Shown here: piece by piece, positions 26,293 through 31,349 of the stretch
Numbering within the stretch: the first letter of the stretch is position 1
How the letters are laid out: the number at the start of each line of letters is the position of its first letter
NCBI GenBank assembly: GCA_944321735.1
Contig: CALUMK010000028.1
Location: forward strand, 1-32,987
DNA from: an uncultured Bacteroidales bacterium
Lineage (GTDB): Bacteria; Bacteroidota; Bacteroidia; Bacteroidales; P3
Length of the DNA stretch: 32,987 nucleotides
Direction of reading: 5' to 3'
Translations under genes and position numbers: made by a program
Notes under the pieces: model-generated
The model's input: only the letters and a program-made list of their open reading frames with translations
What the model was told of the DNA's origin: nothing
The model's database searches: none

Positions 26293-26366
26293 CGGGATGT
26301 AGCTCAGCTTGGTAGAGTACACGTCTGGGGGGCGTGTTGTCGCAGGTTCAAATCCTGTCATCCCGA
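26293..26366 (+). tRNA. tRNA-Pro, anticodon GGG
   Basis: A 74-nt cloverleaf: acceptor CGGGATG/CATCCCG, D arm GCTC/GAGT, anticodon stem CACGT/GCGTG with loop CTGGGGG (anticodon GGG), T arm GCAGG-TTCAAAT-CCTGT, and A as discriminator. CCA is not encoded. Position 1 is C, as usual for bacterial proline tRNAs. Its 3' part is the attachment site of the adjacent island. Confidence 0.95.
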
Positions 26367-26370
26367 CTCT

Positions 26371-26410
26371 AACTCCTTGGTTGCCAATGTGCGGTCAAGG
26401 AGTTTTTTTT
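26371..26410 (+). terminator. tRNA-Pro terminator
   Basis: AACTCCTTG (26371-26379) pairs perfectly with CAAGGAGTT (26396-26404) and is followed by eight T. The same hairpin recurs at 31241-31274 inside the right copy. Confidence 0.88.
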
Positions 26411-26461
26411 ATGTCCTGACTGCGATGAAAGACGGTTTCCGTGGCTTGTGGCGGCCTTCGC

Positions 26462-26480
26462 GTCAACCAAGACGTCAACC
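26462..26480. promoter_or_regulatory. Putative integrase arm-binding repeats, left end
   Basis: GTCAACC occurs at 26462 and 26474, spaced 12 bp, just before the integrase fragment. The same 12-bp pattern occurs four times at 31088-31135 and twice at 31331-31349. Arm-site function is inferred from placement and periodicity. Confidence 0.55.
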
Positions 26481-26488
26481 GAAAAGAG

Positions 26489-26776
26489 ATGGGTACAGCA
26501 GTCAGTATCAGCGTTGTATGCTATCGCTACAAGCGGCTTGCCAACGGAGAAAGTCCACTGATGCTCCGCGTGAGCAAGGACGGAAAAAGAAGTATGCGCA
26601 GTTTGGGCGTTTCAGTCGATACCAAACACTGGGATTTCAGGAAGAATGAACCTAAGCTCAGATGCCCGAATCGGGAGTACATTCTTGACATTATCCTAAA
26701 GGCCAAGCAGAAAACGAGTAAGTTACATGAAAGTTTGCTTGCATGGAAACCGTTTGGTATCTTTGCGGAGCAATAA
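26489..26776 (+). pseudogene. Truncated tyrosine integrase (Arm-DNA-binding domain only)
   Basis: A 95-residue remnant. From ATG 26489 (MGTAVSISVVCYRYKRLANG) it follows the N-terminal Arm domain of Bacteroides mobile-element integrases, with SPLMLRVSKDGKRSMRSLGV, HWDFRKNEPKLRCPNREYI and a following helix. After about residue 75 (KQKTSKLHES) similarity to the family ends, and the frame closes at 26776. Full enzymes have about 400 residues with an R...H-x-x-R...Y catalytic domain; none is present here or elsewhere in the island. The promoter of the next gene lies inside its tail, so a deletion or replacement joined the toxin module here. Confidence 0.8.
26734..26765 (+). promoter_or_regulatory. 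Promoter of the toxin-antitoxin operon
   Basis: TTTG (26734-26737), a 20-nt spacer and TATCTTTG (26758-26765) match the consensus fully. The start of transcription near 26772 leaves a leader of about 15 nt before the toxin ATG at 26787. Confidence 0.75.
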
Positions 26777-26786
26777 TCTGAACCCA

Positions 26787-27131
26787 ATGAGCGGCCGAAG
26801 AATTAAAATAGCATTTATGGACGCAGCAAGGGAGTTTGTGTCATCCCTGCCAGAAAAGGCGCAAAAGAAAATGACCTATAACCTTCTTAAAGTGGAGGGT
26901 GGAGAAATTGATAAGGAAATCTTCAAGAAATTGGAGAACTCCGAGATATGGGAGTTTCGGACACTTTTTAGCGGGATATGTTACCGCCTGTTTGCCTTTT
27001 GGGACACGGAAATAGAGGCTTTAGTGGTTGCCACTCACGGGATAAAGAAAAAGACGCAGAAAACGCCTAAAAGGGAGATAGAAAAGGCGGAGAAATTGAG
27101 GAAAGAATACTTCAACGATAAAAACAAATAG
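26787..27131 (+). CDS. Type II toxin of the HigB/RelE (Gp49-like) family
   Basis: A 114-residue basic protein predicted to cleave ribosome-bound mRNA. The Gp49/DUF891 pattern is visible: MDAAREFVSSLPEKAQKK, then FKKLENSEIWEFRTLFSGIC, YRLFAFWD and VVATHGIKKKTQKTP, with a lysine-rich C-terminal helix. The start ATG 26787 fits the short leader predicted from its promoter; the frame is open to 26727, but those bases are promoter. The antitoxin gene follows after 2 bp. Toxin-first order is typical for higBA. It is more AT-rich than the core genes, consistent with acquisition on the island. Confidence 0.88.
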   Translation: MSGRRIKIAFMDAAREFVSSLPEKAQKKMTYNLLKVEGGEIDKEIFKKLENSEIWEFRTLFSGICYRLFAFWDTEIEALVVATHGIKKKTQKTPKREIEKAEKLRKEYFNDKNK

Positions 27132-27133
27132 CT

Positions 27134-27466
27134 ATGGGAAAGATGAACTTAACCCCGCTTAGCGTGGTCGTGGATGAGGTTTGGGGCGAAAAAGGCACTC
27201 CCGAAAGGGATGCCATGGAAGCTCAGCTCAAAGAGGATTTGCAGGCATATTACATTGGAGAGGCTATCAGGGCAGAACGGCTCAGACAAAACCTTACACA
27301 GGAGGAGTTAGGGGCTAAAGTGGGTGTAAAGAAGTCGCAAATATCCAAACTTGAAAGCGGCAAGTGTATAATAACCCTCCCTACCATGAGCAAAGTTTTC
27401 AAGGCATTGGGCTTCGGCTCGGCCACTCTTGACTTGGGCGTAGGCGGAAAGGTCGCCTTGTGGTAA
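27134..27466 (+). CDS. HigA-like antitoxin, XRE-family HTH
   Basis: A 110-residue partner of the upstream toxin, expected to bind it and repress the shared promoter. The XRE helix-turn-helix spans about residues 44-98 (AIRAERLRQNLTQEELGAKV, then GVKKSQISKLESGK). The N-terminal extension (MNLTPLSVVVDEVWGEKGTP) is of the kind found in toxin-first Bacteroidetes pairs. A start at residue 4 (MNLTP) is also possible. The 2-bp spacing from the toxin indicates one transcript. Confidence 0.88.
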   Translation: MGKMNLTPLSVVVDEVWGEKGTPERDAMEAQLKEDLQAYYIGEAIRAERLRQNLTQEELGAKVGVKKSQISKLESGKCIITLPTMSKVFKALGFGSATLDLGVGGKVALW

Positions 27467-28046: not shown

Positions 28047-28325
28047 ATGGATGCGAAAACACTTGTCGATTACCAAGTCCTTCACGGGCAGAACGAGGTC
28101 GTGGAAGCCTTGATGAAGAACGATGAAAGCCTTTGGGAACAGCTGCCAGAGGATGCGGAAATCCTTGAATGGTGGCTTGTTTCGCCTTGGCTGGCCGAAT
28201 GGCTGCTACGGTCAGGGGAATGCGTTCTGGAGGCTTACGGTTCTTCATGGTGGGGCAGGCAGACCAGCGGTCAGGCCATCTGGATGGATGCCGTGATTCA
28301 GGAAATCGCCCGTTCTTTCATGTAG
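28047..28325 (+). CDS. Small tryptophan-rich protein of unknown function
   Basis: A 92-residue, acidic, soluble-looking protein (MDAKTLVDYQVLHGQNEVVE), notable for WWLVSPWLAEWLL and SSWWGRQTSGQAIWMD. These blocks have the feel of a conserved family seen on mobile elements, with an acidic N-terminal half and the WWGR-TxGQAI signature, but I cannot name it. There is no signal peptide or membrane span. It stands alone on the plus strand between the antitoxin remnant and the ncRNA candidate; no strong promoter was found. It is accepted as real for its clean ATG start and protein-like composition. Confidence 0.65.
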   Translation: MDAKTLVDYQVLHGQNEVVEALMKNDESLWEQLPEDAEILEWWLVSPWLAEWLLRSGECVLEAYGSSWWGRQTSGQAIWMDAVIQEIARSFM

Positions 28326-28390
28326 CCTTGGCTGCTATCGGCTAAAAGGCTAATTTTGTCTTGACAATACCCCTGAGTGCCAAAAATGCT

Positions 28391-28398
28391 TATCTTTG
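28391..28398 (+). promoter_or_regulatory. Putative promoter of ncRNA candidate (-7 box)
   Basis: TATCTTTG matches TAnnTTTG exactly. TTGAC lies at 28361, but 27 nt upstream, longer than usual, so the -33 element is uncertain. A start near 28403 would coincide with the first hairpin. Confidence 0.55.
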
Positions 28399-28402
28399 TG
28401 GC

Positions 28403-28625
28403 GTTGGGCGACCAACGACATATTGTGAAAGTGTTTTGTTTCATCCTTGGCTAAGAATCTGGAAAATTTTAAGCAAACAAGGAGAAACGATAGCATTCTT
28501 CACTTGTTCTGCATATATCATTCCGATATATACGGCCAAGTGTTGGGGTATTGTTTCTGTTTGTTTGCGGGCATTCCAGAGCCTTTAGCCAGATAGAGCA
28601 ACGGCCTCAACACTTTTCTTTTTAT
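28403..28625 (+). ncRNA. Candidate structured non-coding RNA, about 220 nt
   Basis: Between a -7 box and a T-rich end, five helices can be drawn by eye. (1) CGTTGG-GCGA-CCAACG, 28402-28417, with a GNRA loop. (2) GTGAA 28425-28429 with TTCAC 28499-28503. (3) Nested in it, GTTTC+CCTTG (28438-28442, 28445-28449) with CAAGG+GAAAC (28478-28482, 28484-28488). (4) ATATATC/GATATAT, 28513-28531. (5) AGTGTTGGGG (28539-28548) with CCTCAACACT (28604-28613), then TTTCTTTTT. The apparent ORF across it lacks a good start. It may be a regulatory RNA or a leader for the gene at 28673. The family is unknown to me. Confidence 0.6.
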
Positions 28626-28672
28626 CTATTCATCACATCTTTTGGGGCTGGGGATGGCTAAAAGCTATTTTT

Positions 28673-28909
28673 ATGAGCAATTGGAAAATTGTCAGACTGG
28701 ATTCTTGCCAAAACGGGCAGAGAACAGCAGAAATTGAACCTGTTAATGGTGGAGCAAATGCAGAAGTCTCTATTTCAGAACAGAATGGAGCGGTTCATGT
28801 GATTCCTGTGGCGACACCAAAATCTTCATCGGTGGCCTCCACTTTTGCGGAAATCCCTGTGGGAAAAACGGTTGCTACATTGCAAGTGGGAGATATAATT
28901 TCTTGGTAA
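28673..28909 (+). CDS. Small protein of unknown function
   Basis: A 78-residue soluble protein (MSNWKIVRLDSCQNGQRTAE) with mostly beta-type composition, one cysteine, and a C-terminal stretch resembling a small beta-barrel (VGKTVATLQVGDIISW). There is no signal peptide or membrane span, and I recognise no family. It begins about 48 bp after the terminator-like end of the ncRNA candidate, so it could be read from that transcript or have its own promoter. A palindrome with T-rich flank follows 18 bp after its stop and probably ends transcription. Confidence 0.55.
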   Translation: MSNWKIVRLDSCQNGQRTAEIEPVNGGANAEVSISEQNGAVHVIPVATPKSSSVASTFAEIPVGKTVATLQVGDIISW

Positions 28910-28926
28910 TGTTGCAATAAGGCAAT

Positions 28927-28996
28927 GGCACGACATAAGAGGAATAACCTTTAATCGGAATGAGGGGGTATATACTAATATGTCGTGCCTGTTTTT
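28927..28996. terminator. Long-spaced palindrome, probable terminator
   Basis: GGCACGACATA (28927-28937) and TATGTCGTGCC (28979-28989) pair perfectly over 11 bp around 41 nt, followed by GTTTTTA. It lies between the small protein gene and the lipoprotein gene. The long unpaired centre is unusual for a plain terminator. Confidence 0.55.
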
Positions 28997-29026
28997 ATGT
29001 TTTAATTGGTTATTAATGTATATTGT

Positions 29027-30304
29027 ATGAGAACTAAGTGTTTGTTATTGCCTTTAATGGCATTATGCCTTGCTGGCTGCCATCCCGAAGAGGATAAGAG
29101 TTTGCGGATTGATGGCCAGAATTTCCCAGATGATGTATTCAGGTCGTATTTGACCGAGAATTTCGATTTGGACGGTAACGGGGTGCTGGACGAAGATGAA
29201 ATATTGGCAGTGGATTCGATAAATGTTCGTAATCATTTCAGTAATCCCATGTCAGGTGTTATCTATACCTTGGATATGATTGATAGGTTTGAGAACTTAC
29301 GGTATTTGGATTGTTATGGACATCAGATTAAGAATCTGGACTTAAGCCAAAATAAGGCTTTGGTGTATTTGGAGTGTGGACATAATCCATTGGCAAATTT
29401 GAATGTGAGCGGCTGCTTATCTCTGCGCAGTCTGCAGTGTGTCTCGTCTAATCTGAAAGAATTGGATTTGAGCAAGAATGCAGCCTTGGAACAGTTGACC
29501 ATTGGAGGGAGTATGGCAAGTCTTGACCTGAAAGGGTGTGAACTCTTGGAGTATTTGGAGGTTCGGAGCGGCCAGCTGACAAGCTTGGATGTGAGTAGTT
29601 GCACTGTTTTGAAATCTATGGGACTCTACTTCTGCGACCAGTTGACGAGTTTGGACATGAGTGGTTTCACGGCCTTGGAGTATTTGGATGTTGGGAGCAA
29701 CCAGCTGACGAGCCTGGACGTGAGCGGCTGCACTTCCTTGACGAGCTTGGACTGCGGAATCAATCGGCTGACGAGTTTGGATATGAGCGGCTGCACCGCC
29801 TTGACGGAGTTGGTCTGCAGCTATAACCAGCTGACAGACTTGGACGTGAGCGGCTGCACGGCCTTGACGAGGTTGGAATGCTCCGAAAACCAGCTGACGG
29901 ACTTGGATGTAAGCGATTGCACGGCCTTGGCGTACTTGAACTGCTCCTATAACCAGCTGACGGCCTTGGACGTGAGCGGCTGCACCGCCTTGGAGATCTT
30001 GTATTGCTACAACAACCAGCTGACAAGTTTGGATTTGAGTAAGAACACTGCCTTGGGATATTTGCAATGCAGCGGTGAATACCATGTTACAGCCATGCTT
30101 AATATGTTTGATTTGAATCAATTGCCAGAGGGGTTTGATAGAAGCAAGGTGATTGATTGGAACGGAGGAACAGTAGAGGGTACAGTGTTGACCTTTACGC
30201 AACCAGAGGTTACATATACCTATGATACAGAGTACGCTGGAGAAGCATGGCATGTACGGTATGTTGACTTTACGCTGGTTTGTGACAACTACGAGACCAA
30301 GTAG
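29027..30304 (+). CDS. Leucine-rich-repeat lipoprotein with EF-hand-like loop
   Basis: A 425-residue surface or periplasmic lipoprotein. ATG 29027 gives a signal peptide MRTKCLLLPLMALCLAGC whose LAGC lipobox places the lipid on Cys18. An EF-hand-like calcium loop, DLDGNGVLDEDEI, lies at about residues 48-60. Twelve or so leucine-rich repeats of 20-22 (mostly 21) residues follow, of the form LxxLxCxxNQLTxLDVSGCTA (about 90-345), then a beta-rich C-terminal domain. The layout is like BspA/internalin-type adhesins; binding partners are unknown. Repeats 5-12 are the most alike at DNA level, suggesting recent duplication. The next gene follows by 32 bp. The frame is open to 29006, but that start would spoil the signal peptide. 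Confidence 0.88.
   Translation: MRTKCLLLPLMALCLAGCHPEEDKSLRIDGQNFPDDVFRSYLTENFDLDGNGVLDEDEILAVDSINVRNHFSNPMSGVIYTLDMIDRFENLRYLDCYGHQIKNLDLSQNKALVYLECGHNPLANLNVSGCLSLRSLQCVSSNLKELDLSKNAALEQLTIGGSMASLDLKGCELLEYLEVRSGQLTSLDVSSCTVLKSMGLYFCDQLTSLDMSGFTALEYLDVGSNQLTSLDVSGCTSLTSLDCGINRLTSLDMSGCTALTELVCSYNQLTDLDVSGCTALTRLECSENQLTDLDVSDCTALAYLNCSYNQLTALDVSGCTALEILYCYNNQLTSLDLSKNTALGYLQCSGEYHVTAMLNMFDLNQLPEGFDRSKVIDWNGGTVEGTVLTFTQPEVTYTYDTEYAGEAWHVRYVDFTLVCDNYETK
29560..30040 (+). repeat. Tandem 63-bp repeats encoding LRR units
   Basis: Units such as TTGGACGTGAGCGGCTGCAC recur about every 63 bp (21 codons), with CAGCTGAC marking each start. Several neighbouring units are almost identical, whereas the first four repeats of the gene are diverged. 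Such arrays can expand or contract. Confidence 0.8.
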
Positions 30305-31173: not shown

Positions 31174-31349
31174 TCAGCTTGGTAGAGTACACGTCTGGGG
31201 GGCGTGTTGTCGCAGGTTCAAATCCTGTCATCCCGACTCTAACTCCTTGGTTGCCAATGTGCGGTCAAGGAGTTTTTTTATACTCTGACTGCGATGAAAG
31301 ACGGTTTCCGTGGCTTGTGGCGGCCTTCGCGTCAACCAAGACGTCAACC
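31174..31349 (+). repeat. Island direct repeat, right copy, with tRNA-Pro 3' fragment
   Basis: 176 bp almost identical to 26304-26480. 31174-31236 is the last 63 nt of tRNA-Pro without acceptor 5' strand or promoter, so it is not a working tRNA. The terminator hairpin (31241-31274) and two GTCAACC boxes (31331, 31343) follow. Because it repeats left-end element DNA as well as the tRNA, it may mark the left end of a second tandem element. Confidence 0.88.

Follow-up and report, generated by a model that had tools for sequence, protein, structure and literature searches.

Bacteroidota make up a major part of the bacteria in the human gut and, to our knowledge, few of their cis-regulatory RNAs have been worked out. 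Among the RNAs known from bacteria, 6S RNA is rod-like and about 200 nt long, and the tRNA cloverleaf is a four-way junction in which the loops of opposite arms meet. Flavo-1 (RF01705) occurs in many dispersed copies in Bacteroidota, its function being unknown according to the article text of PMC9723704.

The element studied here occupies positions 28391-28625 of the window, by which we mean the whole stretch of 32,987 nt that was analyzed. It is a structured RNA and one member of a large, apparently uncatalogued family, which we regard as a new class of structured cis-regulatory leader. No such RNA is described in the titles and abstract openings of the literature searched or in the articles PMC9723704 and PMC8040213, supplements aside.

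The window gave no family match when searched against Rfam 15 at gathering thresholds, a check that the earlier note on this DNA had proposed. The only Rfam match among 20 related loci was a tRNA, and 11 further loci searched at E <= 0.5 yielded one unrelated weak match and nothing relevant; Rfam membership was rejected on the basis of these three sets. At E <= 1 the Flavo-1 model found 116, 105 and 42 matches in the Bacteroidota genomes G906, G899 and G783, respectively. Flavo-1 was rejected as an identity for our RNA because it had no match in the 11 further loci and because, in three genomes, no Flavo-1 match overlapped a copy of the leader among those compared (45 of 116, 31 of 42 and 2 of 11 matches). 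The 6S RNA and 6S-Flavo models (RF00013 and RF01685) had no match over the cut-off in three genomes. RF00013 gave none at the element and at best 15 bits elsewhere in the genome, with a model whose cut-off was reached in just 4 of 14 control genomes.

Fold of the element in the window

All features described below lie on the forward (+) strand of the window. The folding energy of positions 28399-28625 is -83 kcal/mol, compared with -52.5 kcal/mol (sd 4.2) for shuffled sequences (z -7.24), and none of 200 shuffles folded as well. The opposite strand of the same segment has a fold z of -5.1.

All the parts named in the earlier note are present: an exact -7 box, TATCTTTG, matching TAnnTTTG at 28391-28398 and invariant in the five same-genus copies; a first hairpin at 28403-28416 (GTTGG/CCAAC) with a GCGA loop of the GNRA type, in which two pairs are changed on both sides in the five copies; a two-part helix of 28473-28488 with 28553-28568; and a 7-bp apex hairpin within 28512-28534. 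For the final stem, a complementary strand at 28605-28615 runs into the T-rich segment 28614-28623. In the best fold this strand is used in the basal helix as well, so that the structure in the window is not a simple row of hairpins.

A conserved ORF through the region, which according to the note would have spoken against an RNA, was not seen. In L030 and L032, two of the five copies from the genus, a 74-aa frame starting with GTG runs uninterrupted through the RNA, with similar translations; it carries three stops in the window copy and is not listed in the remaining two copies, so no conserved ORF covers the RNA.

A four-way junction core with complementary loops

Covariation identifies the core of the RNA as a conserved four-way junction of P1, Pa, P2 and Pb, in which the opposite hairpins Pa and Pb have complementary loops. 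P1 is formed in the window by 28448-28454 with 28585-28591. Hairpin Pa (28455-28469) has the loop CTGGAAA between GAAT and ATTT, and hairpin Pb (28569-28584) has the loop ATTCCAGA between GGGC and GCCT; positions 28574-28579 of the Pb loop pair with 28459-28464 of the Pa loop. The two-part helix is the long arm of P2, with 28473-28488 as the 5' strand and 28553-28568 as the 3' strand, both assigned from the window fold and from covariation in the five copies. The apical hairpin of P2 (28501-28542) was placed by the window fold; it pairs 28501-28506 with 28537-28542 and contains the apex hairpin. Typical family members read GAAAT-CTGGACA-ATTTC in Pa and AGGY-n-GTCCAGA-RCCT in Pb.

The covariation check suggested in the note was run on an alignment (A3) that holds 35 of 47 elements, and the structured RNA withstood it: the core covariation score was 0.522, against at most 0.099 in slid controls, and 94.2% of the cells were paired, against at most 45.8%. 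Cells changed on both sides numbered 171, compared with 50.9 in shuffles. All six P1 pairs tested and all six Pa-Pb loop-loop pairs covary, the loops taking forms such as CTGGACA/GTCCAG, CTCGACA/GTCGAG, CTCGCAA/TGCGAG and CCGGAAA/TTTCCGG. Pa was paired in 98.6% of the cells, and the GCUCAC/GUGGGC helix homologous to the P2 apical hairpin in 90.5%. Of the 47 elements, 45 had been picked by a pattern demanding loop complementarity and ends resembling those of Pa and Pb; within this covariation, P1 and the apical helix are free of that bias.

For the same reason the loop test was repeated on 90 loci found by a first covariance model, R1, built from five close copies. The loop pairs are a small part of R1, and the stretches compared were placed by a second model, R2, which was built from 35 sequences and contains the loop pairs; with this placement, the Pa and Pb stretches could form an unbroken run of six or more Watson-Crick pairs in all 90 loci, compared with 28.5% when partners were swapped. 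Pa was possible in 87 of the loci (33.3 expected) and Pb in 84 (45.2 expected). The flanking stems of Pa and Pb are not complementary to each other, so both hairpins and the loop pairing can coexist.

G:U pairs outnumber A:C pairs in the arms by 90 to 18, and in 41 of 47 elements the + strand RNA gives the better fold, which argues that RNA, not DNA, is under selection; the symmetry without RNA-strand preference that would mark a MITE or an attC-like element is not what the pair counts show. Taken alone, the eight P1 pairs next to the core have nearly equal numbers (G:U 7 and A:C 5, of 376).

The motif [GAT]ACATA, present in the window as GACATA at 28417-28422, was found in 91 of 142 elements no more than 60 nt 5' of the core, usually at a distance of 22-35 nt, with 16 expected from shuffling. 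Two further helices were rejected for want of covariation (79 of 142 elements in each case): a basal stem joining GACATA to sequence downstream of the U-run, and a general 5' hairpin before the core.

The island and the closest copies

The RNA is located inside an island that has the tRNA-Pro gene (26293-26367) on one side and a direct repeat on the other. The two direct repeats are about 176 nt long (26304-26480 and 31174-31349), the first 106 nt being identical; they include the 3' part of tRNA-Pro and form an att-like pair bounding the island. Twelve-nucleotide repeats of the CGTCAACCA type lie at and near both island ends. An ORF of 111 aa at 26441-26776, with the integrase-type domain Arm-DNA-bind_5 as its sole match (E 1e-15), is probably a truncated tyrosine integrase, and the Gp49-like and HTH_3 gene pair at 26727-27466 is presumably a toxin-antitoxin module of the HigBA kind. 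Carriage by phages or plasmids was rejected: blastn gave no match for the window among phages and plasmids, for locus L086 among plasmids or for locus L184 among phages, and two patterns had no match in viral_contigs.

Blastn against 190 genomes of the family found full-length copies in two further genomes of the genus, each of which has two, at 75-83% identity. The window and its closest copy, in genome G144, show no difference over 28249-28398 and 28649-28998 and 50 substitutions within 28399-28648, so that variable arms stand between identical flanks. Farther off, parts of the island differ too, with at most 9 differences per 50 nt near 27401-27450. The two sequences differ in 29 of 83 model pairs: 17 of these are standard in both sequences, seven of them being changed on both sides, and 12 are non-standard in one sequence, some perhaps through alignment shifts. 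Over the rod of the five close copies, 14 pairs were changed on both sides, compared with 6.8 in shuffles.

At the G149 locus (L032, on G149:C18) the RNA and an upstream 92-aa gene are kept and the downstream gene is different, the 78-aa gene and the leucine-rich-repeat (LRR) gene that follow the RNA in the window being replaced by another set of small genes. This suggests that leader and cargo can be exchanged separately.

Extent of the family

The R1 model had matches at E <= 1 in 101 of the 190 genomes of the family, the better of which share a core that is plain by eye. R2 found exactly one match in each of 96 sources (the window, the four other close copies and 91 R1 loci), with nothing further in their 346,065 bases. 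In wider surveys, R2 matched 144 of 393 genomes sampled from the order, representing 89 of 207 genera, at E <= 0.001, and 58 of 395 genomes sampled from the phylum, 12 of these 58 lying outside the class. The E-values of both models are rough, and the sequences are related, the counts being thus not independent.

Several copies per genome are frequent. The genome of the window has 11, G144 has 6 and G149 has 4; per-genome numbers in the order and phylum surveys are lower bounds, eight candidates having been scored per genome. In the window's own genome, identical RNA cores precede different genes. Loci L212 and L213 have in common an RNA of about 203 nt with two differences; upstream of this RNA they align over 186 columns at about 71% identity, and downstream of it they do not align. 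Two RNAs in tandem within a single leader were seen at L173 and L180, in two genomes. Three near-identical copies (L207, L209 and L210) lie within about 11 kb at G000:C6:84064-95396, each before a paralogous gene that was called protein-kinase-like by eye. At L165 (G266:C66) RNA and gene are duplicated in tandem, 95% identical over 522 nt and 1,125 nt apart.

Position relative to genes

The position of the copies supports well the view that the RNA is most likely the 5' leader of the downstream gene. An ORF of at least 120 aa was present within 700 nt downstream in 129 of 142 elements (13 had none), and the nearest one was co-directional in 125 of the 129 and on the opposite strand in 4. Upstream ORFs were on the same strand in 79 cases, compared with 43 on the opposite strand, and were lacking in 20. 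An exact -7 box preceded the RNA in 40 of 47 elements, a count made without a shuffle control; in the stretch separating RNA and gene, such a box was present in 1 of 47, the expected number being 1.8. The co-directional ORFs, together with a -7 box before the RNA and not in the gap, make a 5' leader the most likely reading. A search confined to the strand of the RNA, distinct from the strand test on the 129 cases, found an ORF within 450 nt in 136 of 142 elements, with a median distance of 60 nt from the U-run to the ATG; for the window this search took the ORF at 29027 and not the nearer one at 28673.

The earlier note had offered an independent RNA or a long structured leader, of a known or a new kind. 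The element belongs within that choice, and the leader is the option that fits better. In the note the leader would belong to the small protein at 28673. The 78-aa ORF at 28673-28909 (no Pfam match; the same ORF in L030) is indeed the first gene after the RNA, but the downstream gene is not fixed, as the related G149 genome demonstrates. The second gene, at 29027-30304, is LRR lipoprotein-like (LRR_4, E 4.9e-31; lipoprotein by a home-made heuristic). A second terminator-like element lies between the two genes, at 28927-28989, and consists of a perfect inverted repeat of 11 bp (GGCACGACATA/TATGTCGTGCC) with a T-run after it.

The downstream genes are diverse, and no single pathway or signal stands out. 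They include BspA-type leucine-rich-repeat genes and restriction/helicase genes. The most frequent Pfam families among 113 downstream proteins were LRR_5 (15), ResIII (14), DEAD (12), SNF2 (9), Flg_new_2 (7), PLDc_2 (7) and Por_Secre_tail (4), plus several DNA methylases, and PADLOC phage-defence models matched at most 12 members each, several through shared helicase domains. These tallies cover 113 of the 133 listed proteins; the 20 omitted are mostly close relatives of those kept, so common families are under-counted. A home-made, simple heuristic called a signal peptide in 71 of 136 downstream ORFs, compared with 41 of 120 neighbouring ORFs taken as controls. No recombinase, as would accompany an IS110-type bridge RNA, was present among the 25 most frequent of the 85 Pfam families in the 113 proteins.

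Promoter boxes and the 5' end

The element TTTG or TTG is absent at the usual -33 spacing from the -7 box at 28391-28398 in all five same-genus copies. A candidate promoter lies farther upstream, at 28328-28358: TTG at 28328-28330 and, after 20 nt, TAATTTTG at 28351-28358, an exact TAnnTTTG. The equivalent box is exact in four of the five same-genus copies, three of these four also having the TTG, and TAAATTTG is visible at the equivalent place in L074. Given the box at 28391 without a -33 element, transcription in the window may start from the upstream promoter, near 28364. The first hairpin does lie where the note had placed it, but the transcript start predicted there may instead be this earlier one.

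Use of the upstream promoter would make GACAATACCCC-T-GAGTGCC (28363-28381) the 5' end of the transcript; this stretch is complementary to the long-arm strands 28545-28554 and 28492-28498. Its pairing with both inner strands of P2 covaries and was better than shuffles at p <= 0.01 in four of the five same-genus copies; for L033 the test started from its other box alone and gave p 0.835. The 5' end may be a third competitor for the apical strand in the subfamily of the window. Across the family the pairing is not general, reaching p <= 0.05 in 6 of 40 elements. A guide- or bridge-like RNA pairing with its own upstream DNA was dropped as a general idea, since the pairing is mainly a property of the window subfamily and the paired stretch may sit inside a transcript made from the upstream promoter.

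A second partner for the apical strand

Complementarity between the tail preceding the U-run and the P2 apical hairpin's 3' strand reached shuffle p <= 0.05 in 39 of 45 elements, the other 6 being no better than shuffles at that level. In the window the tail at 28605-28615 is complementary to 28538-28548 (p 0.005) and runs into the terminator-like U-run TTTTCTTTTT at 28614-28623. At least four T were found at the scored place in 115 of 142 elements, and 27 had no such run.

In 134 of 142 elements the apical strand paired better with the element's own tail than with swapped tails on average, compared with 56-59 in three negative-control pairings. The long arm of P2 was better with its own than with a swapped partner in 137. 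For the 5' flank, a pairing with either the tail or the inner strand was rejected (56 and 59 of 142). The apical strand of P2 accordingly has two alternative partners, its own hairpin strand and the tail; because it is already paired in the hairpin, pairing with the tail is a switch-like arrangement.

Nested energy modelling puts the tail-paired form a median of 13 kcal/mol above the rod (3.8 in the window). Nested folding, as modelled, thus favours the anti-terminated form, and termination would need a trigger or a pseudoknot that such a model is unable to score.

Discussion

We propose that the RNA is a cis-acting 5' leader of a Bacteroidota-wide class that works as a transcription attenuator, a reading to which we give an even chance. 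As is characteristic of attenuators, the RNA appears from its sequence context to occupy a 5' leader position and to have its promoter in common with the gene. Covariation also indicates mutually exclusive terminator and antiterminator pairings followed by a U-run, the energies favouring one of the two states. Attenuation is the mechanism best supported in kind, with termination and read-through inferred. In outline, the junction and its kissing loops would hold the long arm closed, the apical hairpin would mask the strand needed by the tail, and RNA polymerase would read into the gene. Opening of the arm would let the tail and the apical strand form a terminator stem, and the U-run would stop transcription. 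In the window subfamily the 5' end could compete as a third partner.

The main rival to attenuation is a post-transcriptional role, in which the knotted 5' structure makes the mRNA more stable or regulates how it is processed or translated, the tail pairing serving that end and not termination. We consider it unlikely, while ranking it above the remaining alternatives. It would agree with the rod being the strongly favoured fold, with the many secreted proteins suggested downstream by the signal-peptide counts and with the 27 elements lacking a U-run at the scored place; against this, the tail with its U-run in the other 115 and its covariation with the apical strand resemble a terminator.

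It is still less probable, and in our judgment doubtful, that the RNA is a separate small RNA which acts in trans, has a promoter and a terminator of its own and merely lies beside genes. The promoter box before it, the U-run after it and a rod that is stable alone would all suit such an RNA, but 125 of the 129 nearest downstream ORFs run in the direction of the RNA, some 60 nt separate RNA and gene with a promoter box there no more often than by chance, and the copies of one genome precede different genes.

A DNA-level element, either an attC-like recombination hairpin or a MITE whose inverted repeats merely resemble RNA, is very improbable. Its dispersal (11 copies in the window's own genome), the copy of about 200 nt that recurs with two differences before another gene, the variable arms between identical flanks and the near equality of G:U and A:C in the eight core-adjacent P1 pairs would fit such an element. 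The excess of G:U over A:C in the arms and the better folding of 41 of 47 elements as + strand RNA contradict it, as do the fixed orientation to the gene and the pair of kissing-loop hairpins, unexpected for a MITE. Chance inverted repeats, for which an AT-rich setting and nothing more could be invoked, are refuted by the covariation tests, by the fold z of -7.24 and by the single R2 match in each of 96 sources with no other in 346,065 bases, and their probability is negligible.

Attenuation remains our preferred reading of a leader whose covariation-supported core differs from the families tested and whose alternative pairings are open to direct reporter tests. The RNA provides a sequence handle on a possible co-regulation of surface variation and phage defence. 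We tentatively suggest, while regarding the idea as less probable than not, a phylum-wide RNA sensor, in which the kissing-loop junction would answer one cellular or envelope signal and switch an accessory programme of surface-protein and phage-defence genes, its modules being swapped between genes by recombination. If this is true, swapping of leader modules would bring new cargo under the same control.

Among known systems, attenuators and riboswitch leaders, tandem riboswitches for example, resemble the leader RNA in having a structured 5' leader, a strand with two partners, a U-run and occasional tandems. They differ in that the leader RNA has no known aptamer or ligand, its conserved part is a kissing-loop four-way junction, and the commonest families downstream are surface-repeat and restriction/helicase genes. 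Flavo-1 is likewise a dispersed, multi-copy RNA of Bacteroidota, but it has no match in the window's own genome or in G139, which carry 11 and at least 8 copies of the leader RNA, and it spans 76 positions compared with about 200 nt. With 6S RNA the leader RNA has in common the rod-like shape and the length of about 200 nt; it differs in being present in many copies per genome, each before a gene. The resemblance to tRNA is one of analogy, with no membership claimed: the leader RNA is likewise a four-way junction in which opposite loops meet, but it joins them by six Watson-Crick loop-loop pairs and is without the sequence features of tRNA.
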